DNA of 64,000 bases from positions 7,564,001 through 7,628,000 of the forward strand of contig NZ_JACHMQ010000001.1 in assembly GCF_014208105.1 (NCBI RefSeq), in the 5' to 3' direction. Shown one piece after another: positions 36,132-64,000 of the stretch. Position 1 is the first letter of the stretch. The number at the start of each line of letters is the position of its first letter. The notes beneath the pieces were generated by a model that was not told where the DNA came from, made no database searches, and was given only the letters and a program-made list of their open reading frames with translations. A program made the position numbers and the translations under genes. This stretch comes from Actinomadura coerulea. Lineage in GTDB: Bacteria; Actinomycetota; Actinomycetes; Streptosporangiales; Streptosporangiaceae.

Positions 36132-36772
36132 TGAACCTGAACGACCGGCGGCGCAAGCTGCTGTTCGCGGGTCTCGTCGTGCTCCTCGCGGCGGTCGGCG
36201 TCTACCTGACGGTGGCCTCGCCTTCGGGCGGGTCCGATGACGAGCCGCGGGCCCGCCCGAGCGCGGCGGCGTCGCAGGGGCCGCAGGCCCCCGCGTCGCC
36301 CCCGCCGGGGATCCAGAGCACCGTCGACCCGAACGACTTCGACGTCTACCGGCTGCTGCCGTTCTCCCGGCAGGAGTTCGCCACGGCGGCCGACCTGGCG
36401 CAGCGGTTCGTGGCCGCCTACGGGACGTACCGCTACGACGAGGCCCCCCAGACCTACGTGGCGCGCTTCGCCGGCCTGACCACCTCCGACCTCGGGCAGC
36501 GGCTCGGCCAGGGCGTGGCGACGCCCGGGATGGTGGAGGAGCGCCGCCGCGAGCAGCTCGTCGCGCAGGGCACGGCGTCCCTCGACCGGGTCCGCGACAT
36601 CGAGAACAACTCGATCATCTTCCTGGTGACCGGCCGGCAGCAGGTCACCAAGGGCGGGCGGACCAGCAGCGACAGCAAGCAGTACGCGGTGACCGTGGCG
36701 AGGGACGGCGGTTCGCTGCGGGTCTACTCGTTCGAGCCGGCGGACGCCGGACAGGCGGGTGACACGGGATGA
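36131..36772 (+). CDS. Bitopic membrane protein of secretion locus 1 (VirB8/TcpC-like size)
   Basis: 213 residues from ATG 36131, which shares its A with the upstream stop (TGATG). A membrane helix at about 11-30 (LLFAGLVVLLAAVGVYLTV), a Pro/Ser-rich linker, and an external alpha/beta domain (about 70-205) with RLLPFSRQEFATAADLAQRFVAA. The size and layout resemble a NTF2-like domain such as in VirB8/TcpC, but I cannot confirm the fold. It is coupled to the hydrolase gene (ATGA at 36769-36772). Role inferred as a scaffold of the same machine. Confidence 0.7.
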   Translation: MNLNDRRRKLLFAGLVVLLAAVGVYLTVASPSGGSDDEPRARPSAAASQGPQAPASPPPGIQSTVDPNDFDVYRLLPFSRQEFATAADLAQRFVAAYGTYRYDEAPQTYVARFAGLTTSDLGQRLGQGVATPGMVEERRREQLVAQGTASLDRVRDIENNSIIFLVTGRQQVTKGGRTSSDSKQYAVTVARDGGSLRVYSFEPADAGQAGDTG

Positions 36773-37827
36773 GTCCGCGAAGGTTGCTGCTCGTCGGCGC
36801 TCTCGGCGTCGCCGCGGTGATGTTCGTGGCGCTGGTCTTCGTGCCGATCCTGTTCGGCGCGAGCCAGTTCCTGTTCGGCGGCGGGATCGGCGGTGGCGGC
36901 GGCTGCGTGAACGTCGCCGGCGCCGGCGCGCAGCCCGCGGCGGCCGCCGACGCGAAGTCCGTCCCCGTCGACTACCTGAAGCTGTACCAGGAGGCGGGCA
37001 GGAAGTACGGCATCCCCTGGAACGTCCTGGCGGGCGTCGGCAAGGTCGAGACCGACCACGGCCGGTCGACGATGCCGGGCGTCTCCAGCGGGGAGAACTA
37101 CGCGGGCGCGGGCGGCCCCATGCAGTTCCTGGACGCGACGTTCAGGGCGTTCGCGGTGGACGGCGACAAGGACGGCAAGAAGGACCGCTACGACCCGGCG
37201 GACGCCATCCCGACGGCCGCCGCCTACCTCAAGCACAACGGCGCCCCGGAGCGCATGCGCACCGCGATCTTCCAGTACAACCACTCGTGGGACTACGTGG
37301 ACCTCGTCCTGGACTGGGCGAAGCGCTACGTCGGCGGCGACTTCAAGCCCGTCCAGGCGAACGGGATCAACTGCGAGGACAACGAGCTGCCCGCCAACGT
37401 CGGCGCCCTCGTCAAGACGATCATCGCGTTCGCGATGGCGCAGCGCGGCAAGCCGTACGTGTTCGGGGCGAACGGCCCGGACGCCTACGACTGCTCCAGC
37501 CTGATCCAGGCCGCCTACCGGCAGGTCGGGCTGAACCTCCCGCGCACGACGTTCGAGCAGTGGCCGTTCGGCGTGAAGATCGCCAAGGGCAAGGAGCAGC
37601 CCGGCGACCTGGTGTTCTTCAACTCCGGCCCCGGGACCTCGGCCGACAACCCCGGCCATGTCGGGATGGTCATCGGCGGCGGCAAGATGATCGTGGCGAG
37701 CTGCTCGGCGTGCGTGCCCGCGATCGGCGTGAAGACCTACAAGAAGCCGAACTGGATCGGGGTGACCCGCCCGCTCGCGCGGCCGGACTTCAAGAAGAAG
37801 GTGTCCGAACTGGCCGCCCGGCAGTAG
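36769..37827 (+). CDS. VirB1-like bifunctional transglycosylase-NlpC/P60 hydrolase
   Basis: 352 residues. Membrane anchor (about 5-30), an SLT/lytic transglycosylase domain at about 65-175 (GIPWNVLAGVGKVETDHG with candidate Glu, GGPMQFLDATFRAF, AIFQYNHSWDYV) and an NlpC/P60 domain at about 220-345 (DAYDCSSLIQAAYRQ nucleophile Cys 242; NPGHVGMVIGGG His). It cuts glycan strands and stem peptides to open the cell wall for a T4SS; such two-headed proteins are typical of Gram-positive T4SS. Final gene in locus 1. A second pair of Cys (ASCSACVP) is an extra feature. Confidence 0.92.
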   Translation: MSPRRLLLVGALGVAAVMFVALVFVPILFGASQFLFGGGIGGGGGCVNVAGAGAQPAAAADAKSVPVDYLKLYQEAGRKYGIPWNVLAGVGKVETDHGRSTMPGVSSGENYAGAGGPMQFLDATFRAFAVDGDKDGKKDRYDPADAIPTAAAYLKHNGAPERMRTAIFQYNHSWDYVDLVLDWAKRYVGGDFKPVQANGINCEDNELPANVGALVKTIIAFAMAQRGKPYVFGANGPDAYDCSSLIQAAYRQVGLNLPRTTFEQWPFGVKIAKGKEQPGDLVFFNSGPGTSADNPGHVGMVIGGGKMIVASCSACVPAIGVKTYKKPNWIGVTRPLARPDFKKKVSELAARQ

Positions 37828-39420: not shown

Positions 39421-40434
39421 CTAAATCCTGTTCGCGCCGGCGTAGTCGGAGCGGTCGGAGAGTTTGGAGATTTTGACCACGTCGCCGGTCTGGGGGGCGT
39501 GGAGGTACTTGCCGTCTCCCAGGTAGATGCCCATGTGGTGCAGGTTGCTGCCGAAGTACACCAGGTCGCCGGAGCGGAGGGCGCCGCGGGGGATCTTCGT
39601 TCCCATGGCGAACAGGTCGCCGGTGTAGTGGGGGAGGCCGGGCTTGCCGACCTGGGCGTAGGCCCAGACGACGAGGCCGGAGCAGTCGAAGCTGCTCGGT
39701 CCGGCGGCGGCCCAGACGTAGGGGGAGCCGAGCTTGGTGAGGGCCTTGCGGGCCATCTTGGCGGGCAGGCCGGAGCCCTTGACGGTGGCGGTGAGGCCGG
39801 TGCGCGGGTCGCTCGCGTGGGTGGTGGTCAGCTTGTCGAGGCGCTTCATCACCTCGGAGACCTTGGTCTTGGCCGCCTCGCGCGCCTGCTTGGCGTCGTC
39901 CCAGGCCTTCTTGACCTGCGCGGTCTTCGCCTTCGCGGTGCGCTCCGCGGCGTCGGCCTGGTCGATCTGCTTCTTCAGGGCGAGGACGGCGGTGGCCTGG
40001 CTCTGCGCCAGGTAGGCGCGGTCGGACAGGCCCTCGGCGGAGGCGCCGGAGCCGAAGAGGACGTCGGGGCCGCCGGCCATGTAGTTCGCGGCGGCCAGGC
40101 TGCCGAGCTTCTGGCGGGCGGGCTCGGCGAGGGCGCGCAGCCGCTCGGCCTCCTTGGTGGCGTCCCGCTCGGCCTTGCGGGCCTTGGTGAACTCCACGCG
40201 GGCCTTGTTGAACTTCTCCGTGAGGATCTCGGCCTCTTCGTTCAGCGCGTCGAGGCTTTTGCGCAGGCCCTTCTCCGTCGTCGGCGTGGGGCTCGGCGCC
40301 GAGGGCGCGGAGGCCGGCCGGAACGGCTGGGCGGCGTGGGCGAGGTCCGGCGCGGTGGCGCCGAGGCCGATCAGGAGCAGGGTGGCGGTGGCGGTGGGCA
40401 GAACGCGACGCCGCCGGTGGGAATCCGGAGCCAA
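39421..40434 (-). CDS. Secreted NlpC/P60 peptidoglycan endopeptidase (RipA-like)
   Basis: 337 residues. Signal peptide (about 10-35; TATATLLLIGLGATAPDLAHAA), a long coiled-coil domain (about 52-215), and a C-terminal NlpC/P60 domain (about 230-337) with nucleophile Cys 251 in SFDCSGLVVWAY and His in HHMGIYLGDG. It cuts the D-Glu/mDAP bond in cell-wall stem peptides, acting in growth and division. The start is TTG 40434, supported by GGAGAG eight or so bases upstream. A c-di-AMP riboswitch fills its leader, so the enzyme is under c-di-AMP control, as in other actinomycete wall hydrolases. Confidence 0.94.
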   Translation of the reverse strand: MAPDSHRRRRVLPTATATLLLIGLGATAPDLAHAAQPFRPASAPSAPSPTPTTEKGLRKSLDALNEEAEILTEKFNKARVEFTKARKAERDATKEAERLRALAEPARQKLGSLAAANYMAGGPDVLFGSGASAEGLSDRAYLAQSQATAVLALKKQIDQADAAERTAKAKTAQVKKAWDDAKQAREAAKTKVSEVMKRLDKLTTTHASDPRTGLTATVKGSGLPAKMARKALTKLGSPYVWAAAGPSSFDCSGLVVWAYAQVGKPGLPHYTGDLFAMGTKIPRGALRSGDLVYFGSNLHHMGIYLGDGKYLHAPQTGDVVKISKLSDRSDYAGANRI

Positions 40435-40456
40435 GCCGGTGCTCTCCTCTCCTCGT

Positions 40457-40564
40457 ACGCCTACCGGGTTAGCTGACGGGTTTGGGCCAGGAGTCGCCCT
40501 ACGACGAGCGTCGATTCACCCCGAGGGTGGTGGGTCCCCGGTTCTCCCGCGGGAGATTCGGCGT
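40457..40564 (-). promoter_or_regulatory. c-di-AMP riboswitch (ydaO/yuaA type)
   Basis: Read on the minus strand, the leader contains the diagnostic conserved blocks in order: CGAATC, GGGAGAACCGGGGACCC, GGGGTGAATC, GTAGGG, and near the end CCCGTCAGCTAACCCGGTAGGCG split in P1. ACGCC (5') can pair with GGCGT (3') to close P1. It ends about 22 bases before the TTG start of the NlpC/P60 gene. In this class, c-di-AMP binding normally lowers expression. The family and placement match the class known upstream of actinomycete cell-wall hydrolases. Confidence 0.92.
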
Positions 40565-40613
40565 CCCGGCCGCAGTCCCTGGGGGCGGAACTCCAGACGA
40601 CCGGATCTCGGGC

Positions 40614-50830: not shown

Positions 50831-50880
50831 ACCACCGGCCCGCGACGGCGCGAGGCACGGCGCGGGACCGCGCCGGTGGT
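50831..50880 (-). terminator. Hairpin at the 3' end of the 383-residue gene
   Basis: ACCACCGGC (50831-50839) pairs with GCCGGTGGT (50872-50880), whose last base is in the stop codon. Extra GC palindromes lie in the loop. The kinase operon starts about 140 bp further; TAGAGT-like sequence upstream of DUF4282 could be its -10. Confidence 0.4.
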
Positions 50881-52031
50881 CAGGCGGCCGGAACGCCCGT
50901 GGCCGGCTGCGCGGAGCGCACCTCGGCCTGGTTGGGTTTGGCCGCCAGGCCCGGGAGGTCGGTGGTCGCGGCGCGCAGCCGGGCGATGCCCTCCGCCCCG
51001 AGGTCGCCCAGCATGATGTCGTAGGCCAGGTCGCGCACCGTGTCCATGCCGACGGCCGAGTGGAGCATCGCGCCGATGGTCTCGGTGAGCACCCGCTCGT
51101 AGGCCTCGAAGTTCACCGCCTCGGCCACCGCCGGGTTCCACTCCAGCTGGTCGCCCGCCGTGACGTGCAGCTGCAGTCCGCCGGTCACCGGGTCCACCTG
51201 GTCCAGGTCGATCTCGGCGGCGACGCGGCCGCGGGCCGCCGGCGTTCCGTCGTCGGTGAACAGCAGCGCCGGAACCGAGAAGGTGACCTGCTCGGCGGGC
51301 TTGCGCGGCCGGACGGCGTTGCCGCGCGGCACCGGCGGGACGTCGACGTGGTCGAGCTGCGACAGCATCCGGAACGTCGCCAGGCCGAGGATGCTGTTGA
51401 TGGCCAGCGCCGTCGCCCGGGTCACCGTCTCCATCTCGCCGGGCTTGCGGGTGAGGTAGCCGCTGAACCCGTAGGCGATGATGCGGTCCCGGACGGGGGA
51501 GCGGAGGAAGATGCGCAGCCGGACCCCCGCGACGGGGAGCTCGAACTCGGTGTCGCCGTCGCCGGCCTCGGACCGGACGAAGCCGCCCTCCGACGGGGTC
51601 AGCTTGCCGGCGAGCGCCAGCGTCCCCTCGTTCCCGGCGCGGGTGAGGCTCAGGACGTAGAGGTCGCCGTCCAGCTCGGTGATCACTTCGTCGCCGAGGA
51701 CGACGGCCAGGGCCCGGGCCGTCTCGTTCAGGCCGGCCAGGGTCCTGCGGGGCATCCGCAGCCGCAGCTGGTTCTGCGCCGTCACCCGCCCGCCGACGGT
51801 GTTCTCGACGTGCTCGACCTCCCGCTCGGCCTGCTTGCCGGTGTAGTTGCGCAGGCTGAACGCCAGGACCTCGTTGTCCGTGCGCACCCCGCAGGTGGCC
51901 TTCAGCGCCTTCTTGGCGCTGAGCGGATACGGGGTGTCCTGGCGGACGTACTTGGTCGCGTCCACGAACACGGGGACGTCGTCGTCGAAGAGGCGCCGGA
52001 CGTAGAATTCTTCCTTGGTTTGCGCTGGCAC
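50880..52031 (-). CDS. Conserved-looking protein of unknown function (locus 2)
   Basis: 383 residues from GTG 52031 with GGAGAAGGG upstream; the frame is open for 92 further codons. Soluble, alpha/beta, no membrane segment and no motif I can name. It has acidic patches (VRRLFDDDVPVFVDA), a basic segment (LRLRMPRRTLAGL) and AVAEAVNFEAYERVLTE. Divergent from a zinc-ribbon protein gene, sharing a 270-bp upstream region, so both may be regulated jointly. Its position next to secretion locus 2 suggests a related role, but nothing in the sequence proves that. Confidence 0.7.
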   Translation of the reverse strand: MPAQTKEEFYVRRLFDDDVPVFVDATKYVRQDTPYPLSAKKALKATCGVRTDNEVLAFSLRNYTGKQAEREVEHVENTVGGRVTAQNQLRLRMPRRTLAGLNETARALAVVLGDEVITELDGDLYVLSLTRAGNEGTLALAGKLTPSEGGFVRSEAGDGDTEFELPVAGVRLRIFLRSPVRDRIIAYGFSGYLTRKPGEMETVTRATALAINSILGLATFRMLSQLDHVDVPPVPRGNAVRPRKPAEQVTFSVPALLFTDDGTPAARGRVAAEIDLDQVDPVTGGLQLHVTAGDQLEWNPAVAEAVNFEAYERVLTETIGAMLHSAVGMDTVRDLAYDIMLGDLGAEGIARLRAATTDLPGLAAKPNQAEVRSAQPATGVPAA

Positions 52032-52301: not shown

Positions 52302-53306
52302 ATGCACCAGTTGACCGATTACGTGCTGGCCGTTCGCACCACCGGTTCACCTCCGGCGATCGAAGGGGTCAAGTCGGTCGACCTTGTTCCGGGCGACGAC
52401 GAGGACGTCATCGCCGCGACCATCGCCGGCCTGCGGGCCAGCGGCCTGACCGCGGCCGACTTCCGATCGCGCGTGATCTATCTCGCGCCCGAGGACCCGA
52501 GCTGCCTCGTGCCGTACGCGGCGCTGTGCGGCTTCGCCGGCCGCCGCGTCGACGCCTACGCCGGCGGCACCGTGCTGGAGTTCTCGCGCCTGGACCCGCA
52601 GGGGGAGGGCTTCCCCGACGCGGGCCGGCCGAACGGGTACCTGGAATGGGGCCAGGTCGGCGGCGAGGAGGGGGTCCTGCCGACCGTGCAGGTCGGCTCC
52701 GGCACCCAGCGGCTCGTGACCCCGGAGGCCGTGACCGTGATCCGGTACGCGGCGCGGCTGCGCATGGTCCCGCCGGACTCGGCCCGGGACGCGCTGGCCA
52801 CGTTCGTGCTCGTCGCGGCGCTGCGGCGGCGGGCCGACGACCGGTTCCCCTACCTGTCCACGGGCGACGAGCCCGCTCCCGTCACCAAGGACGACCCGGC
52901 CCAGGGCATCGACCTGGAGAAGCTGCGGCGCGAGGCGGCCAAGTACCGCCAGGAGCTGCGGGCCGGGCGCCGCGGGGCCGACATGGTGCCGCCCGTCCCC
53001 GTCTCGCCGCACAACAAGCGGATCGCCGAGGCCAAGTCGGTGGACGTCCGGACGGTGCTGACGCGGCTCGGCTCCTCCTCCGACGACGGGAACCTGTGGC
53101 ACTGCCCGCGTCCGAGCAGGCACAGCAACGGCGACCGGAACCCCTCGATGAAGGTCTACGGGGACAACCGCACCAGGTGCCACCGCTGCGACGCCGAGAA
53201 GGTCGGCCCGATCCGGCTGGTCATCGACGTCCTGGGGGTCACTCCGGACGAGGCCGCCAGCTTCATCCTGGACTCCGACCGCGTCGTGGACATGCGTCCA
53301 GCCTGA
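52302..53306 (+). CDS. Protein with C-terminal primase-type zinc ribbon, no primase core
   Basis: 334 residues; AAAGGAGA eight bases upstream of ATG. Residues 1-200 are a soluble unknown domain. Residues about 255-330 resemble the DnaG CHC2 zinc-binding domain: LWHCPRPSRHSNGDRNPSMK then NRTRCHRCDAEKV, giving Cys, His, Cys, Cys and the NPSM element typical of CHC2. No TOPRIM or primase catalytic motif is present. It could bind DNA or RNA as a recruiter in locus 2. The spacing between the first Cys and His is longer than in DnaG. Confidence 0.75.
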   Translation: MHQLTDYVLAVRTTGSPPAIEGVKSVDLVPGDDEDVIAATIAGLRASGLTAADFRSRVIYLAPEDPSCLVPYAALCGFAGRRVDAYAGGTVLEFSRLDPQGEGFPDAGRPNGYLEWGQVGGEEGVLPTVQVGSGTQRLVTPEAVTVIRYAARLRMVPPDSARDALATFVLVAALRRRADDRFPYLSTGDEPAPVTKDDPAQGIDLEKLRREAAKYRQELRAGRRGADMVPPVPVSPHNKRIAEAKSVDVRTVLTRLGSSSDDGNLWHCPRPSRHSNGDRNPSMKVYGDNRTRCHRCDAEKVGPIRLVIDVLGVTPDEAASFILDSDRVVDMRPA

Positions 53307-53346: not shown

Positions 53347-53856
53347 ATGGCCGATTCGCAGGACCGCGCGGACGTGGTGCTGCTGACCGTGGATGGAGAG
53401 CAGGTGGGCCACGTTCACCGCAGTGTCCTCGATCGGGTCGCCGAGATCGCCGGCAGGCTGGGCTGCCGCGACGCCGTCGCGCTGGCCTGCCCGCCGGTCA
53501 CGTTCGACGGCTCCCGCATGCCCCGGCTGCGGCGCGACCTGGAGCAGGTCATCGCCTACGCCGAGGCGGCCCGGCAGACCGGCTGGGTTTTAGGCGATAT
53601 CGCGGTCGCCCCCGGTGACCGGGCGGTTCCGGTGATGGACACCGCGCAGGGCAAGGTCTGGGCCCACCCCGTCCGCGGCTTCGAACTGCACGGGGAGGCC
53701 GGGGTGCGCCGGATCACGGAACTGGCCGAGATGCCGGGGACTCCGCGGCGCACCCCGCTGGCCCATCTCATCGCGCCGCTGGTCGAGGCCGCGGCGCGTG
53801 CGCGGGTGCTGGAGATCGGCGACGGCAAGCACGAGCGCGCCGTGCGCCAGGGCTGA
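53347..53856 (+). CDS. Small soluble protein of unknown function (locus 2)
   Basis: 169 residues, no membrane segment and no known motif; it starts 40 bp after the zinc-ribbon gene with GGGGGAA upstream. Contains VGHVHRSVLDRVAEIAG and HLIAPLVEAAARARVLEIG. Likely co-transcribed with the zinc-ribbon gene and ended by a strong hairpin. I do not recognise it. Confidence 0.7.
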   Translation: MADSQDRADVVLLTVDGEQVGHVHRSVLDRVAEIAGRLGCRDAVALACPPVTFDGSRMPRLRRDLEQVIAYAEAARQTGWVLGDIAVAPGDRAVPVMDTAQGKVWAHPVRGFELHGEAGVRRITELAEMPGTPRRTPLAHLIAPLVEAAARARVLEIGDGKHERAVRQG

Positions 53857-53925: not shown

Positions 53926-55533
53926 TCAGCGCTCGACGAGTCGCTCCGGCGCGGCGGACGGCCCCGTGACGGCGAACCGCAGCGCCGCCGGGAACTGCGT
54001 CTCCGGATTGGCGATGAGGGCGCCGACCTGTCCCGCGCCCGCCATCTCCTCGGCGACCGCGCCCGGCCGCACGCCGAGCACGTAGTCGGCCTCCATGGGG
54101 CTCACCGCGGTGACGCACCCCGCGGGCAGCGTCGCGTACGCCCCGAGGAAGACGCGGCTGCCCTCCGGGATCAGCGAGGCCAGCGCGCGCAGGACGATCC
54201 GCGCGGCCGGGCCGGTCACGGTCACGGCCTGCATCTGCGCCAGCGCCTGCCGGATCCGGGCGAGCTGGTCCCCGCTGACGACGCCGCCGGCGACGAGGGC
54301 GTTGGTCTTCGGGACCACGCCGTTCCGCCTGCTGATCACGACGGAGTCGTTCACCTTCGAGACGACGAGGCCCCGCTTCTCCCGGGAGGCCGTGATCGTC
54401 TTCACGGCCCGGCGGGACGCGGCGAGGCTGGGGAACCCCGGGATCTGGTGGATGCCGCGCGCCCCGCAGACGGTCACCTGGGTCCCGTGGACGTGCACCT
54501 CGTCGATCGTCTCGTCGCGCATCAGCTCGCCGAGCAGGTGGGTGCCGTTCAGGACGTGGTAGACCCTGCTGGCCATGGCCGGGTCCCCGCCCGTGTGCCG
54601 GGTGAGGACCTCCAGCCAGAGCTCGGCCACCCGCGGGCGGAGCGTGGTGGCGATCCGCTCCGCGGTGGCCCACGCCGGGTCCGCCGCGGGCGGGGGCGGG
54701 GACGGGGGCGTGGTGCCGTCGGCGAGCTCCTGGGAGCCCTGCGCGGTCTGCGGGCCCTGCCCGTTCTGCGTCTGCTGCCCGTTCTGCGTCGGCTGCGCGT
54801 TCTGTTGGAGCTGCCCGTTGTTCGGAGCCTGCCCGTTCTGCGGGGCTTGCGGAGGCTGGACGGCCTCCGGGGTCTGCGCCGGCTGCTGAGCCTGGGCGGG
54901 GGGCGCGGTCTGGAACGGCTGCCCGGCCGTCCCGAAGGGCGTGCTGCGCGTGAGCCGGTGGTCCTGCGGGGGTGCGGGGGACCACGCCGTACCGTCCGCC
55001 TCAAGGGCGGAGGGGGCCTCGGCGCCCTGCGCCGCCTCGGGCTCCTGGGGAGGCTGCTCCGCCGGCGCGTCCGCGGGCTCCGGGGGCTCCGCGGGCTCCG
55101 GGGGCTCCGCGGGCTCCGCGCGCTCCTGCTTCTGGAGATTGTCGCGCGCCTTCGGCTGCGCGGCGGCCGGGGGCGCCTGAGCACGCGCCCCGCCCGCACC
55201 GGCCGCCGCCTGGTCGGCCGGTGCCGCGGCGGACGGCTTCGCCGTCGCGGACGGCTTCGCCGTCGCGGGGGCGGCGCCGTTGGCGGGGTCGTTGGCGGAG
55301 TCGTCCCAGGCGGAGAACAGGGACGCCCAGTCGTCCTGCGGGCTCTGCTGGTCGGCCCCGGTCTCGGAGCCCGCGGCGGCGCCCGCGTCCGCCGGTGCGG
55401 CCTGGGCGGGGGGGCCGGTCACCAGGAGCTTGTCCTGCGAGGGTTGCTCTTCCGGCCCGTCGTCCTCCTCCTGGCCGACGCCGATGGCCGCCCAGAAGTC
55501 CATTCCGGTGGCGGGCTCATTTTGCGCTGCCAT
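53926..55533 (-). CDS. CpaF/VirB11-like protein lacking the Walker A motif
   Basis: 535 residues, ATG 55533 with AAAGGAAG upstream. The first 280 residues are disordered (Pro/Ala/Glu, then QNGQ repeats). Residues about 290-520 follow the order of a CpaF/TadA secretion ATPase: an N-terminal-like domain (DETIDEVHVHGTQVTVCG, then FPSLAASRRAVKTI), then VTVTGPAARIVLRALASLIP where the family has TGxTGSGKTTLLxALxSxIP. Here the GSGKT is absent. The later acidic and Walker B regions are not clear either. So an ATP-dead relative or a distant fold is proposed; confidence is moderate. Confidence 0.6.
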   Translation of the reverse strand: MAAQNEPATGMDFWAAIGVGQEEDDGPEEQPSQDKLLVTGPPAQAAPADAGAAAGSETGADQQSPQDDWASLFSAWDDSANDPANGAAPATAKPSATAKPSAAAPADQAAAGAGGARAQAPPAAAQPKARDNLQKQERAEPAEPPEPAEPPEPADAPAEQPPQEPEAAQGAEAPSALEADGTAWSPAPPQDHRLTRSTPFGTAGQPFQTAPPAQAQQPAQTPEAVQPPQAPQNGQAPNNGQLQQNAQPTQNGQQTQNGQGPQTAQGSQELADGTTPPSPPPPAADPAWATAERIATTLRPRVAELWLEVLTRHTGGDPAMASRVYHVLNGTHLLGELMRDETIDEVHVHGTQVTVCGARGIHQIPGFPSLAASRRAVKTITASREKRGLVVSKVNDSVVISRRNGVVPKTNALVAGGVVSGDQLARIRQALAQMQAVTVTGPAARIVLRALASLIPEGSRVFLGAYATLPAGCVTAVSPMEADYVLGVRPGAVAEEMAGAGQVGALIANPETQFPAALRFAVTGPSAAPERLVER

Positions 55534-55575: not shown

Positions 55576-57231
55576 TCACTTGGGGTCCATGCCGAGGAGC
55601 CTCTTCAGGAGGCCTCCCCGGCCGCCCGCCGCCTGCGTGGCCATGGACTGGCCGAACACCGGGTCCCCGGTGACGAACTGGAGGATCTCACGGAAGGTCA
55701 CGTCCAGGTCCGGGCCGATCTGCAGCGCGTTCAGCCGGCGGTTGTTGGCGGCCTGCGTCCACTCCAGATCCTCGGGGATCATGCCGACGAACCGCCAGCC
55801 GGGCATCAGGTCCATGACGTCCTCCGGGCTGCAGTCCACGTCGGCGCGGGCCCGGTTGAGGATGAGCGACAGCTTCTCGGGGTCCACACCGCCGCTCCGG
55901 GAGTGGCGCGGCATGGTGATCGCGCTGAGCCAGGCGCGTGCGGCCTCCAGCGTCACCCGGTTGGGCTCGACCGGGACCAGGATCGCGTCCGCCTCGGGCA
56001 GGACCAGGTCGGTGAACGTCATGTGGTAGAGCTCGGCGACGGGCGTGTCGACGAACACGAAGTCGAACGCCTGCCGCAGCACCGCGATGATCCGCCGGTA
56101 CAGCATCGCGTTGATCAGGGCCGGATCGGCCATGGTGATGTCCTGCGGTCCGAGCAGCGTGAACAGGTCGGCGTCCCCGATGTGCGCGAGATGGCTGCGC
56201 ACGTTCTCCGCCCTGAGCGATCCGTTGCTCCGGAGCATGTCGAGGATCGTCGGCGACTCCACGTTCAGGTACCGCGCGACGTCGGCCTGCTGGAAGTTGG
56301 TGTCGACCAGAGCGACCCTCCCGGGCCGGCCGGCCGCGTGCAGATGCCGGGCCGCGTAGACCGACAGGTTCACGGCCGTGGTGGTCTTGCCCACACCGCC
56401 CTTGGCGGAGGCGATGGCGATGACCCGTCCCAGCGCCGGGGCGGGCTCCTCGGCCCTGACCAGTGCGGTCGACGGAGCCTGCTGCGGCCCCGGCCATCCG
56501 TTCGAGACCGGCTGGGCCGGCATCGCGTCGTGGTCGTGCCCCGTCGCGGACTCCAGGGCCGGCTCGTCCCGGTTTCCCGGGACGGGCTGCTGCGCCGCGA
56601 CCCCCTGCTGTCCCTGTGCGGGCGCCGGCCACGGCTGGGAGCCGGGAGCCGGGGCTGAGGGCGCGGGCGGTCGGGCGGCCTGCGGCGGCACGGCACCGGG
56701 CGGCTGCGCGAACGAGGGCGGCTGCGCCGGGCTCTGGTTCCAGCCGCCGGCGGAGGTCTGGCCGGTGGCGGCGGGTTGCGCGGCGGGCGCCGGAGCCGGT
56801 GGCCGCCCGGCGGGTGGTGGGGCGGCAGGTGGCGGGGCGGCCGGTGGCGGGGCGGCCGGCGGGGCCGGGGGCTTGCCGGCGATGCCGAACAGCGCCAGCA
56901 GGTCCGACATCTTGAGCTGCCCGCCGATGACGTGGACGCCCGGTGCGAAGGCGTCGCCGCGTTCCGCGAAGTAGCCGTGCACGAGCACGGTGAACCCGCG
57001 GCCGGCGAGCCCGTTCGCCAGGACGGCCACGCCGGCGCCCGGGAGGTCCTCCACGAATCCCGGGGCGAACATGAAGGCGGCGGGGGAACCGACCCGACCG
57101 CTCTTGGACAGGTCGCGAAGTTCTGCCGCGGAGGCGGCGTCGTACACCGCGGAGAACCGGCCGGTCTCCCGCAAACTCCGGGCGACGCCCGGATCCCCCG
57201 CGACGACGAGGTTCGGCGCAGTTGCCATCAC
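55576..57231 (-). CDS. CpaE/TadZ-like MinD/ParA ATPase
   Basis: 551 residues (GTG 57231 or ATG 57228; GAGGA upstream). Residues 1-115 form a receiver-like domain (APNLVVAGDPGVARSL, VAVLANGLAGRGFTVLVHGY), then a Pro-rich linker to about 250, then a complete MinD/ParA domain: deviant Walker A IASAKGGVGKTTTAVNLS near 272, VALVDTNFQQADVARYL, DFVFVDTPVAE and LVPVEPNRVTLE. TadZ/CpaE proteins localise secretion or pilus machines. It is next to the CpaF-like gene and divergent from the second VirB4-like gene. In contrast to the MinD-like part fused to TcpE in locus 1, both lysines of the P-loop are kept. Confidence 0.88.
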   Translation of the reverse strand: MMATAPNLVVAGDPGVARSLRETGRFSAVYDAASAAELRDLSKSGRVGSPAAFMFAPGFVEDLPGAGVAVLANGLAGRGFTVLVHGYFAERGDAFAPGVHVIGGQLKMSDLLALFGIAGKPPAPPAAPPPAAPPPAAPPPAGRPPAPAPAAQPAATGQTSAGGWNQSPAQPPSFAQPPGAVPPQAARPPAPSAPAPGSQPWPAPAQGQQGVAAQQPVPGNRDEPALESATGHDHDAMPAQPVSNGWPGPQQAPSTALVRAEEPAPALGRVIAIASAKGGVGKTTTAVNLSVYAARHLHAAGRPGRVALVDTNFQQADVARYLNVESPTILDMLRSNGSLRAENVRSHLAHIGDADLFTLLGPQDITMADPALINAMLYRRIIAVLRQAFDFVFVDTPVAELYHMTFTDLVLPEADAILVPVEPNRVTLEAARAWLSAITMPRHSRSGGVDPEKLSLILNRARADVDCSPEDVMDLMPGWRFVGMIPEDLEWTQAANNRRLNALQIGPDLDVTFREILQFVTGDPVFGQSMATQAAGGRGGLLKRLLGMDPK

Positions 57232-57378: not shown

Positions 57379-59991
57379 ATGGTCAACCTGAGGGCGGCGC
57401 TCGGACGTCTCACCGGGACCAGCCGCGCAGGCCGTTCCGAGGCCGACACCGCCACCATGTGGACCACTCCTTACGCCTGGCGGACCGCCGACGGCGTCTA
57501 CGTCGGCTACAACGGCGAGGTGTGGATCTACCGCACCGTGCGCCTGTCGCCGATGAAGTGGGAGGACCCGGCGGAGCAGCTGTCCATGGCGGCGCCGCTG
57601 TCCCGGCTCCTGGGCGACCTCGGCCGGACGTCGCGGCAGCCGGTGGGCGGTCTGGCGACCCTGTCCAACAACCGCAACATCCACCTGGTCTCGATCACTT
57701 GGGACGACCTCGTCACCCCGCCGAAGGAGAACACCGACGAGCTCCGCGCCTACCAGGCCGAGGCCTTCGGCTTCCTGGCCCCGAAGCGCGTCCTGTTCGT
57801 CGGCGTGCAGCTCCGGTCGTCGCTCATGGACAAGACGTCCCGCGCCGGCAAGGGCTCGCAGGGCGGCATGGGGACGATCAAGGCCTTGACCGACCTGGTC
57901 AAGGACTCCATGGCCGACGACGTCCCCGACCTGTCCGACTATCAGAAGGACATGGAGCACATCGTCTCCATCTTCAAGCGGGCGGACGCGCAGGAGCCGA
58001 CCCGGCAGGAGCTCGACCAGCTGGAGTCCTGGTACAACCTCGGGCGGGGCCCGGACGCGGTGATCGAGGAGATGCCGACCCGGCTCGACGTCACCGGCAT
58101 CGGCGAGCTGGAGATGGCCGCCGTCATGCGGTTCGACCAGCCGATCATGCCGTCCCCCGACGCCCAGTGGGCGCTGGACGTGATCAGCCACCCCGGCGAC
58201 GCCCCGCACGTCATCTCGATCAGGGCCGAGCTCGAACCCGCGAACCTGACGCGGGCGAGGGCCCGCCGGGCGCAGCGCCGGATCATGTCCAACATGGAGG
58301 AGGAGCGCAAGACCCAGGACCTGGAGAAGGTCGAGCTCTCCCAGACCTTCCAGCAGGCCAAGGAGGTCGAGGACTACCTCGCGACCTCCAACCAGCCCAT
58401 GCTGGCCCGGTGCAGCTTCATCATGGCGCGGGAGATGACCGACGCCACCGAGACCTACATGGAGTTCCTGGCCCAGTACTACGGGATCCAGATGAAGGCG
58501 CTGGAGCACCGCCAGATCCAGGCGCTGGAGGAGACCCTGCCCTGCTCCTCCGTCCGGGTGAACCCGTTCTTGCAGGACGTCAACGTGCCGATGGTCTCGC
58601 ACGCCGGGCTCCAGGCGTTCTCCGACCTCGGTGACGACCTCGGCGTCTACGGCGGGCTCATCGACCCGGACGGCACGCCGTTCTTCGTCGACCCCCTCGG
58701 CGCTCCCCGCAAGAACCTGCCGCCGGTCTTCGGGATCTTCGGGGACCCGGGCAGCGGCAAGACCTTCTTCGCCCAGTCCGTCGCCACCCAGTCCGCGCTG
58801 AACGGCCTGCCGGTGATCTTCGTGAACCCGAAGGGCGGCGACTCCCTCTACGGGATGGTGGACTACGTCCAGCGGATGGGGATCCCCGCCGGCCGGGTGT
58901 CGATGTCGGCGCTGGAGGAGTCGCCCGGGGCCTTCGACCCGTTCCGGTACGCGCCGCCGACGATCGCGGCCGAGATCGCGAACGTGCACATCCTGTCCGC
59001 GCTGGACGACTCCCGCGACGGGCTCTCGCTGTCGGAGCGGCTCGCGCTCGGCTCCGGGCTGAAGCGCGGGGCGCTCAACGGCGCGCGCTGCGTCTGGGAC
59101 GCCCTGAAGTACGTTCCCGGCGACGACGCGGAGCGGGTGCGCAGCCTGGTGGAGCAGCAGATGGAGGCGTCGTCGATGTTCTCCCTCGGCATCGCCCTCC
59201 AGCCGCTGCCCCGCCTGGACATGTCGCAGCGGCTCACGCTGGTCGACTTCGACCGCGAGCTCGGCCTGCCGGAGGGCAAGACGCCGAGCGAGTACTCGGT
59301 GTCGGAGCGCATCGCGCTGGCGGCGGTGCGCCTGGTCATCCGCGCCTCGCTGGAGATCCTCATCGCCAACCGCTCGGGCGTGCTGATCGTGGACGAGGCG
59401 TGGACCTTCCTCTCGCAGGCCGAGGGCCTGGCCTCGCTGCAGCGCATCTCGCGTGAGGGCCGGTCGCTGAACATCATGCCGGTGTTCCTCACCCAGCGGA
59501 TCGCGGACGTGGTCACCAAGGACCTGGAGTCCTACCTGAGCCGGGTGCTGGTGCTGAAGCTGAACGAGAAGCGCGAGGCGGAGACGGCGCTGCGGCTGTG
59601 CGGCCTCGACCCGACCTCCGAGCGGCTCTCGCAGATCCGCGAGTTCGGCCCGCTGCCGGCCGAGGACGGCAAGCCCGCGCGCTGGGCGCGCGGCATCTTC
59701 CGCGACCTGTTCGGACGGCACGCCCAGGTCGTCCTCGGCCCCACGCCGCCCGAGGCCGCGCAGGCGTACAGCACGAACCCGGAGGACCGCCGCAAGCGCG
59801 AGGAGGCCCGCAGGGAGCGCGAGGAGGCCGAACGGGCCGAGTACGAGGCGGCCGTCGCCGCAGCCGCGCGGATGAAGGATCCCGGCGCGACCGCGCCGCC
59901 GGGGCAGAACGGCGCGGCCCCGGCCCCGGGGCACGACATCAGCGCCGGCCCGCCGCAGACGGGGGAGGAGAACCCATGGCTCGTCGGCTGA
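57379..59991 (+). CDS. VirB4-like type IV secretion ATPase (locus 2)
   Basis: 870 residues, ATG 57379 with AGGGAGA about ten bases upstream. N-terminal VirB4-type region (about 1-430), motor with Walker A IFGDPGSGKTFFAQS near residue 455, Walker B GVLIVDEAW near 670, and VFLTQRIADVV. A charged helical stretch (RKREEARREREEAERAEYE at about 805-830) and Pro/Gly tail follow. No fusion to other domains. It powers locus 2, with a large VirB6-like protein overlapping by 16 bases next. Confidence 0.9.
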   Translation: MVNLRAALGRLTGTSRAGRSEADTATMWTTPYAWRTADGVYVGYNGEVWIYRTVRLSPMKWEDPAEQLSMAAPLSRLLGDLGRTSRQPVGGLATLSNNRNIHLVSITWDDLVTPPKENTDELRAYQAEAFGFLAPKRVLFVGVQLRSSLMDKTSRAGKGSQGGMGTIKALTDLVKDSMADDVPDLSDYQKDMEHIVSIFKRADAQEPTRQELDQLESWYNLGRGPDAVIEEMPTRLDVTGIGELEMAAVMRFDQPIMPSPDAQWALDVISHPGDAPHVISIRAELEPANLTRARARRAQRRIMSNMEEERKTQDLEKVELSQTFQQAKEVEDYLATSNQPMLARCSFIMAREMTDATETYMEFLAQYYGIQMKALEHRQIQALEETLPCSSVRVNPFLQDVNVPMVSHAGLQAFSDLGDDLGVYGGLIDPDGTPFFVDPLGAPRKNLPPVFGIFGDPGSGKTFFAQSVATQSALNGLPVIFVNPKGGDSLYGMVDYVQRMGIPAGRVSMSALEESPGAFDPFRYAPPTIAAEIANVHILSALDDSRDGLSLSERLALGSGLKRGALNGARCVWDALKYVPGDDAERVRSLVEQQMEASSMFSLGIALQPLPRLDMSQRLTLVDFDRELGLPEGKTPSEYSVSERIALAAVRLVIRASLEILIANRSGVLIVDEAWTFLSQAEGLASLQRISREGRSLNIMPVFLTQRIADVVTKDLESYLSRVLVLKLNEKREAETALRLCGLDPTSERLSQIREFGPLPAEDGKPARWARGIFRDLFGRHAQVVLGPTPPEAAQAYSTNPEDRRKREEARREREEAERAEYEAAVAAAARMKDPGATAPPGQNGAAPAPGHDISAGPPQTGEENPWLVG

Positions 59992-62900
59992 GGCCCGGCA
60001 CGGCCCGCAGCGGCGACCCGCGGAAGCGGAGCCGTTCCGGCCAGGCGGAGCCGGGCGGCGCGAAGGCGGCACCCCCGCGCCCACGCCGCGGACTCCAGCT
60101 GCTGGTGTGGGCACTGGCGCTCACCGTCTTCGGCGGTCTCGCGCTGCTCTCCGGACAGACCGAGGGCTTCGGATCCGGCGGCCGGCCGCCGAACGCCGCC
60201 GCGCCCGCCGCGCCCGCCGCGCCCGCCGCGCGCGTCGCGGCGCCCGCGCCCGCCGCCTCCTCAGCGCCCGCTTCCACCCTGCCCGCCAATTCCACAGTGC
60301 CCGTCTATAACACCGTGCCCGGCGTGTCCTCCGCGCCGGTGGCGCAGACCGGAGCGGGCGTCGGCGGGCGCCTGCTCGCGGCGGCCCCGGACGACCAGCC
60401 CACCTACGACATCAACCGGGACGCCTGCGAGGCCTACAGCGAGGCGAGGGACTTCCTGCCGCTGCACCGGTGGACGTCCTTCGAGCTCTTCGTGGTGGAC
60501 AACGCCCGGATCTTCAAGACCCAGCGGTTCGTCTCGATGATCGCCAGCCTGATGTTCATGGCGGGAGGGCTCTGCTGGCGGATCATCGGCTCGCTGATGG
60601 GATTCGGCTACTCGTTCGACATGATCTGCCGGGCGGCGGATCCGATCAACTCGGTCGTGCGCACCTTCTCGCTGTACGCGGCCTGGTTCCTGATCCCCTC
60701 GTGGATCTTCGTCATGGCGGCGGTGTTCCGGCGCTGGTCCAGCAGCGGCCACCGCCGGGGGCCCGCGGCCGCGATGCGCCTGGTCATGGTGTTCCTGGCG
60801 GCGAACGGGTTGATCTTCTTCATCGGCGACCAGGCCGACAAGCACCAGGACAACCCGACGGCGGCGTACACGACGCCGTGGATGGCCGCGACCGTCCAGG
60901 GCTGGTTCACCACCGCGGCGGACTCGCTCTACAACCTGCAGAAGATAGGCAGGATCAACGACGGCACGGACAACAATCCGGTGTTCTATGACGGCCATCC
61001 GGACGGCGGAGCGGGCGCGGTCACCTGCGCGAAGTTCGACGACAAGCTCAACGACGAGTACATGGCCCGGAACAAGGACACCTCACTCGCCAGTGGAAAA
61101 CAGGCGATGGTGCAGGTGAGCAAGATGTGGGAGATCTCGCTCGTCCGTTCCTGGCAGGCCGCGCAGTTCGGTGAGGGCACGAAGCAGTTCCCCTCGCCTG
61201 CCCACGCGTCCTGCCGCTGGCTCGAGGCCAACGCCGACGTGAGCACCGAGAACAAGCTGGAGGCCTACGACCTGGCGACCGGCCACGGCAAGGGCACCAC
61301 CACGTCGAACTCGGCCCGCGGGTACTTCATCGACCCCGCCGCGGACGAGCAGATGATCATGATCGCCTGGGGTGCCTGCAAGGCCAACGACGACGGGCTC
61401 GGCAGCGCCCACACGATCCCGCAGTGGGACAAGGCCACCGACACCAAGGACAAGGCGAAGGCCTGCGAGAAGCTCTACAGCAACGTCACCTACGAGGACG
61501 ACAAGAGCGGGACGCAGTTCAGCGTCGCCGGTATCGACGTGCTCTGCTTCCTCTGCGACAACGGCACGATGGGCACGTTCTACTTCAACGGTGACGACGA
61601 GCTCAAGGACAAGCTGGGGAACTGCTACGCGAGCGAGCCCGCCTGCCAGGCCGACTGGAACTTCGTCAGCGCCTGGCTGGGCAAGAACCAGGCCCAGCGG
61701 CTCACCCAGGGCCTGCTGTCGATGATCGTCGCCTTCGTCTTCCTGTTCGTCATGGGACCAATGGCGATCGGTATGACAGTGTCCAGTGTGGGTTTGGCAG
61801 GACTTGTCATGATATTGCCATTGACATTGCTGCTCATAGGAGCGGGCCTGCCGCAAGGGATGAGACTGCTCAAACTCACCGGAGCGGCGGCGGCGGGTGA
61901 CGCCCTCTTCACCCTTGCCCTGACGTTCCTGACCATGCTCACCGATACGACGTACCAGGCCATCGAGGCGACCACCAAGGACGGCACGCCGAACTTCTTC
62001 CAGCAGGTCGCGCAGGGCGCGGCCCCCCTGGTGGCGCTGTTCCTGTTCAAGAAGATCAGCAAGATCCTGAGCCTGGGGGACATCTCCTCCACCTCGGGGG
62101 CCACGGGGTTCGCCTCGGCCATCGTGCTGCGGGGCAGCGGTGACCGGAGGCTGTCGCGCAACGCGGGCCAGCAGGTGTCCCAGCGCCTCGGCCGCCTCGG
62201 CGTGGGCAAGATGCGGCTGGCCGCGCTGGACGAGCGGTCGCTGCAGCGGCGCATGCTCAACAACCGCGCGACGAGGGCGGTCGCCGGCGCGGCGAAGAAG
62301 GGGGCGCAGCGAGCCACCCGCCCGATCACCGACTGGGCGAAGGACAAGTACGACGGCGGCCGCGCGAAGCTCCAGAACGGTGTGAACGCCCTGCAGCGCA
62401 AGGCCGCGTCCGGGTCGCCCGCGCAGCGCGCGGCCGCGTACGCCGGGCTGACCGCGGGTCTGGCCGGCCTGACGATGGTGGCGCCGCCGGCGGTGCTGGC
62501 GACGCTGCCGCTGATGGCCTTCACCGGCTCCGCGGCGGCCGGGCGCGGCATCCAGGCCGGCGTCAACGGGATCAGGGGCGTGCGCTCCGGAGCCGGCGGC
62601 GAAGGGACGGGCATGGACGCGATCTCCGCGGCGGGCATGCCCACGGCGAACAGCGCCCGGACGGGCCTGCGGCAGGCCGACGACTGGCATCGCAACATCA
62701 TCCGCGTCAGCGACTCCGAGGAGCAGCGGCGGCTGATGGGCGAACACGCCGAGGAGGGCCTGAACATGCTGCGGGCCCGGCAGTGGGGCCAGGGGCAGCC
62801 CGGCGGGCTCCACCCGGAGTTCACCGGATTCGTCAACGACGAGGAGAAGATGCGGGCGCTCGCCGACGCGGCGAGCGCGATGGGCCTGAACGCCAGCCAG

Positions 62901-64000
62901 CTCCAGGTCAGCAACCAGGGGCTGCTCGCCCCCAACGTCGAGTTCGCGAACGGCCGGCCCCAGGGCATCACCGCCGAGCAGCTGGGCATGATGCCGCACC
63001 TGTTCCTGCCCGCTCGCGACCGGCGGCCCCAGATGACCGCCGACGGGGTTCTGGAGAACCAGGACCAGCAGATCGCCCGGATGACGGCGCAGCTCAGGGA
63101 ACGCGGCTACGTCACCGACGAAGGCGAGATCGTCAACGTCCTGGAGGCCCACGGGTTCGACACGCGCCTTCCCGAGGTGAAGGTGCGGGTGGAGCGCTGG
63201 CTCGACGGGGGCAAGGACGAGGAGCTCTCCCGCATCAGCATCGCTCCCCGCCGGGGAGAGGTCGCCGCCGTGGAGGCCGCCCGGGAGTGGGCCAGCGACG
63301 TCGACATGCCGGCCCCCGACATCCGCCAGCGGCGCGACCTGGACGCGGTGAGCGGCGTGATGACCGCCGCGCGGAGCGAGATCGGAGACTTCAACAGGAT
63401 CCGCATCGAGATGCCGGACGGCACCTTCGCGTCGGCCGGCAACCTCCAGCGCCAGCTCGAAGGGGAGATCCGCTCCATGGTGAGCGTCGCCATGGAGACC
63501 AAGAACCTGCACGACACGATGAACGCGGGAACGATCACCGGGGAGTTCTTCGGAGCGGAGTACGCCCGGCTCACCCAGATGCAGCAGGAGGCCGCCCAGC
63601 AGGTCGACAGGCTGAGCGCCATGTTCCGGGACGCGGTCGACGCGTCCCGTTCGGCGCGCGGCGTCTGCGAACTGCGGGTGCAGATGGCCGATCCGAACAG
63701 CATGATCGACGCCGATGAGCTGACGCGGCTCGCCGACCAGATCACCAAGAGCAACCAGCAGGCGCAGCAGCAGGTGCACCAGGAGATCGACAGGCTGGTC
63801 GGCGCCATCTCCCAGCGGCCGACCGACTCGGGGGCCGCGGCGGGGATCCTCCGCAGCCTCGACGAGTTGCGGGACGTGTTCGACCGGGAGGGCCGCGGTG
63901 AACGCTCGGAGAACCAGGCGGTGATCGACCGGCTGAGCGACCTGGAGCGGTCGCTCCAGGACAGCAGGCGGATGACCCAGGTCGACCCACGGCTGGCGGC
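59976..64000 (+). CDS. Large polytopic VirB6/TrbL-like secretion protein, cut by the window end
   Basis: Open from ATG 59976 (GGGGGAGGAG five bases upstream) to the window end, at least 1,341 codons; the 3' end is missing. Seen in order: signal-like helix (about 33-53), an Ala/Pro linker, three or more helices at about 180-285 (RFVSMIASLMFMAGGLCW, FLIPSWIFVMAAVF, LVMVFLAANGLIFFIG), an external Cys-rich part of about 250 residues (WGACKAND, VLCFLCDNG, NCYASEPAC), a second helix group at about 575-660, then a long charged, partly coiled-coil cytoplasmic tail. It fits a VirB6-type pore protein with extra large domains; the C-terminal function is unknown. Confidence 0.85.
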   Translation, partial: MARRLRPGTARSGDPRKRSRSGQAEPGGAKAAPPRPRRGLQLLVWALALTVFGGLALLSGQTEGFGSGGRPPNAAAPAAPAAPAARVAAPAPAASSAPASTLPANSTVPVYNTVPGVSSAPVAQTGAGVGGRLLAAAPDDQPTYDINRDACEAYSEARDFLPLHRWTSFELFVVDNARIFKTQRFVSMIASLMFMAGGLCWRIIGSLMGFGYSFDMICRAADPINSVVRTFSLYAAWFLIPSWIFVMAAVFRRWSSSGHRRGPAAAMRLVMVFLAANGLIFFIGDQADKHQDNPTAAYTTPWMAATVQGWFTTAADSLYNLQKIGRINDGTDNNPVFYDGHPDGGAGAVTCAKFDDKLNDEYMARNKDTSLASGKQAMVQVSKMWEISLVRSWQAAQFGEGTKQFPSPAHASCRWLEANADVSTENKLEAYDLATGHGKGTTTSNSARGYFIDPAADEQMIMIAWGACKANDDGLGSAHTIPQWDKATDTKDKAKACEKLYSNVTYEDDKSGTQFSVAGIDVLCFLCDNGTMGTFYFNGDDELKDKLGNCYASEPACQADWNFVSAWLGKNQAQRLTQGLLSMIVAFVFLFVMGPMAIGMTVSSVGLAGLVMILPLTLLLIGAGLPQGMRLLKLTGAAAAGDALFTLALTFLTMLTDTTYQAIEATTKDGTPNFFQQVAQGAAPLVALFLFKKISKILSLGDISSTSGATGFASAIVLRGSGDRRLSRNAGQQVSQRLGRLGVGKMRLAALDERSLQRRMLNNRATRAVAGAAKKGAQRATRPITDWAKDKYDGGRAKLQNGVNALQRKAASGSPAQRAAAYAGLTAGLAGLTMVAPPAVLATLPLMAFTGSAAAGRGIQAGVNGIRGVRSGAGGEGTGMDAISAAGMPTANSARTGLRQADDWHRNIIRVSDSEEQRRLMGEHAEEGLNMLRARQWGQGQPGGLHPEFTGFVNDEEKMRALADAASAMGLNASQLQVSNQGLLAPNVEFANGRPQGITAEQLGMMPHLFLPARDRRPQMTADGVLENQDQQIARMTAQLRERGYVTDEGEIVNVLEAHGFDTRLPEVKVRVERWLDGGKDEELSRISIAPRRGEVAAVEAAREWASDVDMPAPDIRQRRDLDAVSGVMTAARSEIGDFNRIRIEMPDGTFASAGNLQRQLEGEIRSMVSVAMETKNLHDTMNAGTITGEFFGAEYARLTQMQQEAAQQVDRLSAMFRDAVDASRSARGVCELRVQMADPNSMIDADELTRLADQITKSNQQAQQQVHQEIDRLVGAISQRPTDSGAAAGILRSLDELRDVFDREGRGERSENQAVIDRLSDLERSLQDSRRMTQVDPRLA

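Follow-up and report, generated by a model that had tools for sequence, protein, structure and literature searches.

The window analysed here is a stretch of 64,000 nucleotides from Actinomadura coerulea (G000:C1:7564001-7628000), whose genome is a single contig of 8.19 Mb. At its right end begins a type IV secretion module of about 30 kb, syntenic with those of relatives and accessory, which contains a VirB4, a VirD4-like protein, a putative wall hydrolase and small membrane proteins, and which we call T4SS-2 to set it apart from the window's other type IV set, T4SS-1 (28170-37827). Positions above 64000 are window coordinates continued. The subject of this study is the large plus-strand gene that follows virB4 in the module (59976..64073, with 59976..64000 in the window and its genome end at G000:C1:7628073), whose product is probably a polytopic channel subunit of the extended VirB6 type in a monoderm type IV secretion system (T4SS). 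The gene is defined by an open frame and a ribosome-binding-like motif, GGAGGAG at 59964-59970, ahead of the ATG at 59976, a start that is identical in A. mexicana (L011) and in locus L012 and that overlaps the virB4 stop (59991) by 16 nucleotides. A preliminary description of this DNA had seen a very large protein of more than 1,340 codons running off the window, and 1341 of its 1365 codons indeed lie inside. Reading of the rest of the gene reveals no frameshift and a stop at 64073, 73 bases beyond the window end. This stop is the natural end of the gene, because the homologs in Actinomadura (1356, 1366, 1336 and 1344 amino acids (aa), n = 4, with the starts in L013 and L014 picked by N-terminal match) and the open frames in three other genera (1379, 1383 and 1387 aa, stop to stop) are similarly long, so that a stop just past the window does not speak against a very large protein. 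The DNA of the gene is single-copy in the genome, where 12 other matches of 30-84 bases fall mostly behind the anchor segment described below.

Hydropathy analysis outlines a protein with two membrane groups, as the preliminary description had proposed. A basic N-terminus with 12 K/R and 2 D/E in residues 1-40 precedes an anchor or signal segment at residues 43-62 (60102..60161, plus strand as for all features of this gene; hydropathy and charge count). The first membrane group, residues 188-285 (60537..60830), holds C200 and C218, and the second, residues 579-700 (61710..62075), coincides with a match to the family NF046089 at residues 571-698. The hydropathy peaks of these two groups flank a hydrophilic domain of 293 residues with eight cysteines, residues 286-578 (60831..61709), which is predicted to lie outside. 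Taken together, the peaks are at residues 47-53; about 194-201, 236-244 and 271-279; about 582-623, 640-647 and 691-694; and 832-847. The last of these belongs to a further hydrophobic stretch within the tail (residues 826-855, 62451..62540), which went unmentioned in the preliminary description and whose peak is kept in 9 of 10 chromosomal sequences, that of A. coerulea included. Because of this segment a cytoplasmic position of the tail, implied earlier, is not established. The long coiled tail proposed at the same time holds for its distal part: heptad-like periodicity is present at residues 1180-1365 (63513..64000 for residues 1180-1341 in the window), where none of 300 shuffles scored as high, but is absent from residues 880-1020 and 1020-1180, where 62 and 135 of 300 shuffles did.

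The cysteines give the protein its most distinctive feature. There are 12 of them (C151, C200, C218, C351, C413, C468, C497, C524, C527, C550, C557 and C1231), eight of which, C351 to C557, fall within residues 286-578. The earlier estimate of about ten external cysteines is borne out, since 10 of the 12 lie in predicted outside stretches; these stretches comprise 438 residues, as against one cysteine in 847 residues elsewhere (Fisher p = 1.5e-4), a count that leaves out the stretches 188-211, with C200, and 230-285. All 11 genomes compared share seven of the positions, C151, C218, C351, C413, C468, C550 and C557, and C497 is found in 10, the eleventh (G064) having an unaligned cysteine nearby. 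Over the same 11 genomes, 7 of 11 cysteine columns are invariant compared with 106 of 580 other columns (Fisher p = 0.0013). C524 and C527 occur together in five of the 11 and are both missing in six, never singly, a pattern that may reflect one event because the five carriers are among the most similar sequences. Such conservation, with cysteines coming and going in pairs, is what outside disulfide pairs would give, and the external disulfides suggested in the preliminary description are thus well supported, the pairing itself being predicted from the alignments. If C151 pairs with C218, the intervening hydrophobic stretch cannot cross the membrane in a simple way; this pairing would fit the charge pattern, with the basic N-terminus and the basic residues 252-267 both inside.

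Our comparisons of substitution rates also show that the outside domain is under strong purifying selection. Its ratio of nonsynonymous to synonymous substitutions (dN/dS) is 0.18 against A. mexicana and 0.16 against G005, compared with 0.23 and 0 for residues 579-720 and 0.69 and 0.35 for the tail, so that the domain is about as constrained as the membrane part. The stretch 61-187 appears unconstrained (0.58 and 1.8, respectively).

The assignment to VirB6 rests on layout, position and a weak but repeated profile match. The protein is polytopic and its gene shares a secretion locus with virB4, which are the general features of VirB6 proteins, and the same order recurs in other genomes. NF046089 (CD3337/EF1877), which we take to be a VirB6-type family, matches 8 of 11 members, that of A. 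coerulea included, at E up to 1 (best E 9.5e-5). The earlier label of VirB6-like therefore stands for gene context and architecture, but no family threshold is passed, and formal membership by profile is inconclusive. Several results weigh against our assignment. The score of the A. coerulea protein against NF046089 is 14.4 bits with a cut-off of 120, and neither the full-length protein nor any of the 11 members has a PF04610 (VirB6/TrbL) match, the limit for the members being E 1. The protein matches no Pfam family above cut-off, and neither it nor the family alignment finds a believable solved structure by profile. Simple hydropathy yields no consistent topology, notably after residue 700, and the AlphaFold2 models, one for the core (residues 141-760) and one for the outside domain (286-578), are unusable, with mean predicted local distance difference test scores (pLDDT) of 32.8 and 35.9. 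The frame in G008 is 1050 aa long, part of the tail being missing. A profile-profile comparison with the TrbL-type VirB6 of T4SS-1 gave a score of 40.3 and a probability of 20.7%, above reversed controls of 23.3 and 23.8; however, the best of 25 local shuffles reached 43.3 (the next 21.6), and the shuffles printed had probabilities of 34-45%. We do not use this match as firm support, for one local shuffle scored higher, and it is suggestive at best. The depth of the T4SS-1 VirB6 profile was little changed by a phylum search, which with the membrane part added one genome among 118.

That no family threshold is passed and that the profile-profile test is not clearly above its control favour the view that the gene encodes not a VirB6 but a large membrane protein of another kind, such as one that remodels the wall or sits on the surface, travelling with secretion genes. 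We regard this as improbable, because the gene overlaps virB4, has the same neighbours in relatives and belongs to a family in which 8 of 11 members match a mobilome membrane family that we take as VirB6-type, while no other module protein scanned has a VirB6 match.

The gene just upstream (57379..59991, plus strand) encodes the VirB4-type ATPase of the module. It matches PF12846 (AAA_10) with 69.3 bits against a cut-off of 27.5 and carries a Walker A motif, GDPGSGKT, and a Walker B-like motif, VLIVDE, as expected for a VirB4; its best NCBIfam match is TcpF, with 60.8 of 1100 bits. A tree of 24 VirB4 proteins is divided by a 100/100 branch. Eight T4SS-2 rows share one side of it with five megaplasmid rows and Bifidobacterium breve pMP7017, and the opposite side contains five T4SS-1 rows, one Nocardiopsis plasmid row and four rows from Firmicute plasmids. 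The branch of B. breve, at 1.79, is very long, and the program warns of long branches meeting, including at the deep split. When B. breve is dropped (16 rows), the 100/100 split holds, but the relative order of Euzebya, the remaining megaplasmids and T4SS-2 is no longer fixed. Both trees are midpoint-rooted and contain no MPF_FATA reference, and the other plasmid rows split off number five in the 24-row tree and four in the 16-row tree. The plasmid pMP7017 has been called conjugative (PMC10832533, in the part of the text available).

The megaplasmids with a related VirB4 are five plasmids of 400-571 kb from Euzebya, Pseudarthrobacter, Arthrobacter, Curtobacterium and Paenarthrobacter (L077, L078, L079, L080 and L094), and all five are typed as non-mobilizable. 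They were first linked to the module by tblastn, which matched two Arthrobacter plasmids directly (E 6e-5 and 4e-5), and the Curtobacterium protein scores 60.9 bits with the VirB6 profile; the Arthrobacter and Pseudarthrobacter scores with this profile are not independent, because the profile held an Arthrobacter row. A profile of the 419-aa module protein finds a gene directly upstream of virB4 on four of four megaplasmids (E 7e-9 to 1.4e-15), and this is independent support for the kinship, because that profile was built without megaplasmid rows. C351, C413, C468 and C497 are kept, as in the module protein, in all three alignable megaplasmid homologs (Arthrobacter, Pseudarthrobacter and Curtobacterium), the weak Euzebya match (345 aa, 24.6 bits) being excluded as not alignable over the cysteine domain. 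By eye, Arthrobacter and Pseudarthrobacter have one cysteine each near C151 and C218, shifted by a few residues; in Curtobacterium position 151 is a cysteine, another cysteine lies near it, and there is none at 218. Just upstream the megaplasmids also have two small membrane-protein genes that resemble by layout those of the 113-aa and 195-aa module proteins, with a weak profile match (E 0.011) for the 113-aa-like protein of Arthrobacter only. On the other hand, the megaplasmid VirB6-like proteins differ in being plasmid-borne and annotated as 1043, 994 and 1081 aa, in an identity of 22% (Arthrobacter), and in lacking C550 and C557 in all three; on these megaplasmids no VirD4-like protein was detected, unlike in the module. 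We found only passing mentions of the named megaplasmids in the open-licence literature.

T4SS-1 is another system of the same window, which ends 22 kb before the VirB6-type gene and includes TcpE, an AAA_10 VirB4, a TrbL-type VirB6 and an NlpC/P60 hydrolase. Its VirB4 (31111-33642) is present in 40 of 40 genus genomes, with best matches outside the A. coerulea genome 90-98% identical, and T4SS-1 is therefore regarded as core. Both sets are monoderm and combine an AAA_10 VirB4 with a VirB6-type protein and an NlpC/P60 hydrolase, the latter putative in the module. In contrast to the module, T4SS-1 has TcpE and TrbL (PF04610) matches above cut-offs, and its VirB4 groups with those of Nocardiopsis and Firmicute plasmids. 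A T4SS-1 relative occurs in NZ_LT559118.1 (Nonomuraea, 11.85 Mb), filed among plasmids and apparently a chromosome. Between the two sets, a cyclic di-AMP riboswitch (RF00379, 90 bits) at 40442-40573 stands ahead of the minus-strand gene 39421-40434, whose product looks NlpC/P60-like by eye.

The left part of the module consists of conserved genes that are mostly without a recognised family. Its left end is a minus-strand gene for a protein of about 380 aa (50880..52022, start estimated from homologs), which was not detected where synteny would place it in G002, G021 and G006. A plus-strand gene (52302..53306) follows for a 334-aa protein whose alignment has a C/H/C/C pattern near the C-terminus, presumably resembling a primase-type zinc finger; the protein has no Pfam match and no solved relative. 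Next come a 169-aa protein (53347..53856, plus strand; homologs, no Pfam match) and a conserved minus-strand gene (53926..55533) whose product has homologs, no Pfam or NCBIfam match, no Walker A/B pattern in a motif scan and no believable solved relative. A resemblance of this product to a CpaF/VirB11-type ATPase minus the P-loop was dropped, as neither profile nor structure supported it. The minus-strand gene 55576..57231 encodes a ParA/MinD-type ATPase (PF13614, 50.9 bits with a cut-off of 27) with homologs in syntenic loci.

Beyond the VirB6-type gene, three minus-strand genes encode a 238-aa protein (64374-65090), a 1282-aa hydrolase candidate (65217-69065) with NlpC/P60-like and transglycosylase-like stretches, both below Pfam cut-offs, and a 216-aa protein (69198-69848). 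Five plus-strand genes follow, for proteins of 195 aa (69950-70537), 419 aa (70612-71871) and 113 aa with two hydrophobic segments (71887-72228; L009:17887-18228), for the VirD4-like protein (72251-74215) and for a 240-aa protein (74212-74934). The VirD4-like protein matches PF12696 (TraG-D_C) with 25.5 bits against 22, with PF02534 below cut-off (583 of 654 residues scanned), which places it among the coupling proteins (VirD4/TraG/TraD). The assignments of the small proteins are weaker. The 195-aa family matches PF12648 (TcpE-type VirB3) in 3 of 11 members (best E 0.063). The 419-aa protein may be VirB8-like by layout only; 12 members gave no relevant VirB8/TcpC profile or solved-structure match, which also counts against a complete channel of the kind we propose. 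The 113-aa family matches PF18895 (VirB2-like pilin) in 5 of 10 members (best E 0.01; A. coerulea copy 14.9 of 26.6 bits, below cut-off) and DUF1206 in an equal number with a better E (0.00092). According to the available part of one source, Gram-positive systems other than those of Patescibacteria have no pilins (PMC12857230).

The right end of the module (L010:2931-6537) comprises a sigma-70 type factor (76931-78103, minus strand), a NusA-like KH protein (78322-79104, plus), a 251-aa protein (79115-79870, plus) and a response regulator (79827-80537, minus), all kept in G008. In G153 the sigma factor (61% identity) is near the module on its opposite side, and the response regulator has only 37% identity. 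Further right, adjoining 538- and 496-aa proteins (L010:9961-13161), with no Pfam match and 26-28% identity to one G008 region, are perhaps a paralogous pair.

The distribution of the module is patchy. The VirB6 core was found in 5 of 40 genus genomes, in 4 of 150 family genomes (4 of 68 genera) and in 3 of 396 phylum genomes, the genome of A. coerulea included in each, by searches with a loose initial screen that could overlook distant forms; the other two phylum matches are weak and partial, one of which (G568) adjoins a weak match to the hydrolase profile. The four named homolog loci, from a scan of genome contigs, are all of Actinomadura. Module order is kept in A. mexicana and strain WMMA1423 as far as the loci reach, and in G005 and G008, the 238-aa and 113-aa genes not being detected in the latter; in the other genera the core genes keep their order within the stretches covered from G153, G089 and G064. 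In A. violacea (L014, a contig of G009) the module genes are rearranged, and homologs of 53347-53856 and 53926-55533 were not detected. Over the same eight homologs identity is 80-97% for VirB4 and 41-95% for VirB6, with further VirB6 values of 51% (G037) and 31% (G064). The G037 homolog (L027) lies in two frames on a 7.7-kb contig of an assembly that is 88% complete, where decay and assembly error are both possible.

A stretch of 57.9 kb that contains the module, about 50762-108672 (G000:C1:7614762-7672672), has no counterpart at the corresponding site of G021 and G006, where its flanks are about 90 bases and less than 0.8 kb apart. In G002 the site (C1 about 1952892-1969501) holds about 16.6 kb of other DNA, which marks it as a hot spot of insertion or loss. 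In G005 the module adjoins T4SS-1, as in A. coerulea. The 58-kb segment, which may have been gained here or lost elsewhere, is not the module alone, because genes at 96532-106187, outside the module, also follow it in G008. The segment ends have no tRNA and no exact direct repeat longer than 11 bp between the kilobases around both ends, and a phage collection yielded no relative at E 0.01.

Such patchy presence, the split G037 copy, the shorter G008 copy and the failure to find a relaxase or integrase among the proteins scanned might all point to a conjugative element that has decayed or been domesticated, its remnant being kept by chance. This is very unlikely in our view, since the Walker motifs are present in both VirB4 and the VirD4-like protein, VirB4 is 80-97% identical in all eight module homologs, the outside domain and membrane part are under purifying selection, and core gene order is kept in other genera.

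No relaxase or integrase was found among the module and neighbouring proteins scanned, which cover part of the genes of the 58-kb segment, and this also weighs against our main reading; with no relaxase found in the element, the module is not classed as an integrative conjugative element. Two families were searched genome-wide, PF03432 and PF08751: frames with a PF03432 domain lie at 5.87, 6.30 and 7.36 Mb, the nearest about 258 kb from the module at 7.61-7.64 Mb, and PF08751 is absent from the genome. Among 11 genomes or records searched, PF03432 occurs in three and PF08751 in one (G064, on another contig), and none of four megaplasmids has either. At E 1e-6 the VirD4-like protein has matches in 4 of 72,556 plasmid records, all four from outside the actinobacteria. 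These results, the segment ends free of tRNA and repeats, and the sigma factor, NusA-like protein and response regulator that travel with the module in G008 would all suit a dedicated, non-conjugative system for contact-dependent export of protein or another substrate, co-opted from conjugation, with the cysteine-rich domain as an effector platform. The chromosomal, mostly relaxase-less systems of Patescibacteria, thought to serve other tasks (PMC12102498, as far as its text is available), offer a parallel. However, the proteins scanned include no recognisable effector, immunity or adhesin gene product (PADLOC, run on 10 proteins, returned a single weak match of 34 residues at E 0.0019 that we do not believe), and any of the three PF03432 frames elsewhere could act in trans, the two families covering only part of the relaxases. 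Export of this kind is possible, and we rate it as unlikely. The substrate is more likely DNA than protein because of the megaplasmid kinship and the ATPase set, with caution called for by the lack of a relaxase in the module.

As a channel subunit, the protein would work as follows. Its membrane groups may sit as an oligomer on the VirB4 motor, with the hydrophilic domain outside, held together by as many as five disulfides, with C351, C413, C468 and C497 as their core, C151-C218 and C550-C557 as probable pairs and C524-C527 as an optional one. The domain would stand on the outer face of the membrane and pass a substrate, brought by the VirD4-like protein, to the VirB8-like protein and the wall hydrolase, while the coiled tail may bind partners. 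In the model for Gram-positive systems, as given in the available part of PMC11753425, VirB8 and a VirB1 hydrolase form a wall complex on a base of VirB3, VirB4, VirB6 and the coupling protein. The protein would belong to this base, its outside domain being in a good position to contact both the hydrolase and the 419-aa protein. Contact with the wall or a target cell, as the preliminary description had it, is suggested by the neighbouring putative wall hydrolase.

Comparison with known systems shows both likeness and difference. The VirB6-type proteins of MPF_FA systems, such as TcpH, are likewise large membrane proteins encoded beside virB4, and on plasmids of Paenibacillus, two Bacillus and Niallia a large gene, presumably a VirB6 by position, comes directly after virB4 or after one small gene. 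The module protein differs in its 1365 aa, its cysteine-rich predicted outside domain of about 290 residues and its lack of a profile match above cut-off. The available part of PMC12857230 gives 700-900 residues as the size class of extended VirB6 proteins and describes the role of their added domains as not yet known. The extended VirB6 proteins of Rickettsiales are also very large with added domains; their extensions are C-terminal, at least in Anaplasma, and the organism is unrelated (PMC7648143, in part). The Patescibacteria systems are likewise chromosomal, mostly lack a relaxase and have VirB2-like pilins beside VirB4, as the module may, but their VirB4 is placed within MPF_FATA (PMC12102498, within the same available text), whereas the module VirB4 is far below the TcpF cut-off and of an actinobacterial lineage. 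In the open-licence literature, a body that leaves most subscription journals outside, we found no description of a cysteine-rich VirB6 domain in Gram-positive bacteria and no paper on type IV secretion or conjugation in Actinomadura.

In summary, what is new here is a cysteine-rich, 1365-aa version of an extended-VirB6-type protein, in a T4SS branch that the module shares with actinobacterial megaplasmids. A bolder proposal, which we find rather doubtful, is that of a relaxase-less monoderm branch on actinobacterial chromosomes and giant plasmids, with a disulfide-locked outer channel head, possibly a VirB2-like pilin, and a substrate other than relaxase-bound single-stranded DNA, for example double-stranded DNA between hyphae, or proteins. 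For the family, the finding adds an extended-VirB6-type protein whose predicted outside domain is conserved and whose cysteine pattern lends itself to tests of single residues, and the module that encodes it is absent from the corresponding site of close relatives. The same branch of T4SS is carried by plasmids of 400-571 kb that are typed as non-mobilizable, which bears on how such plasmids move.

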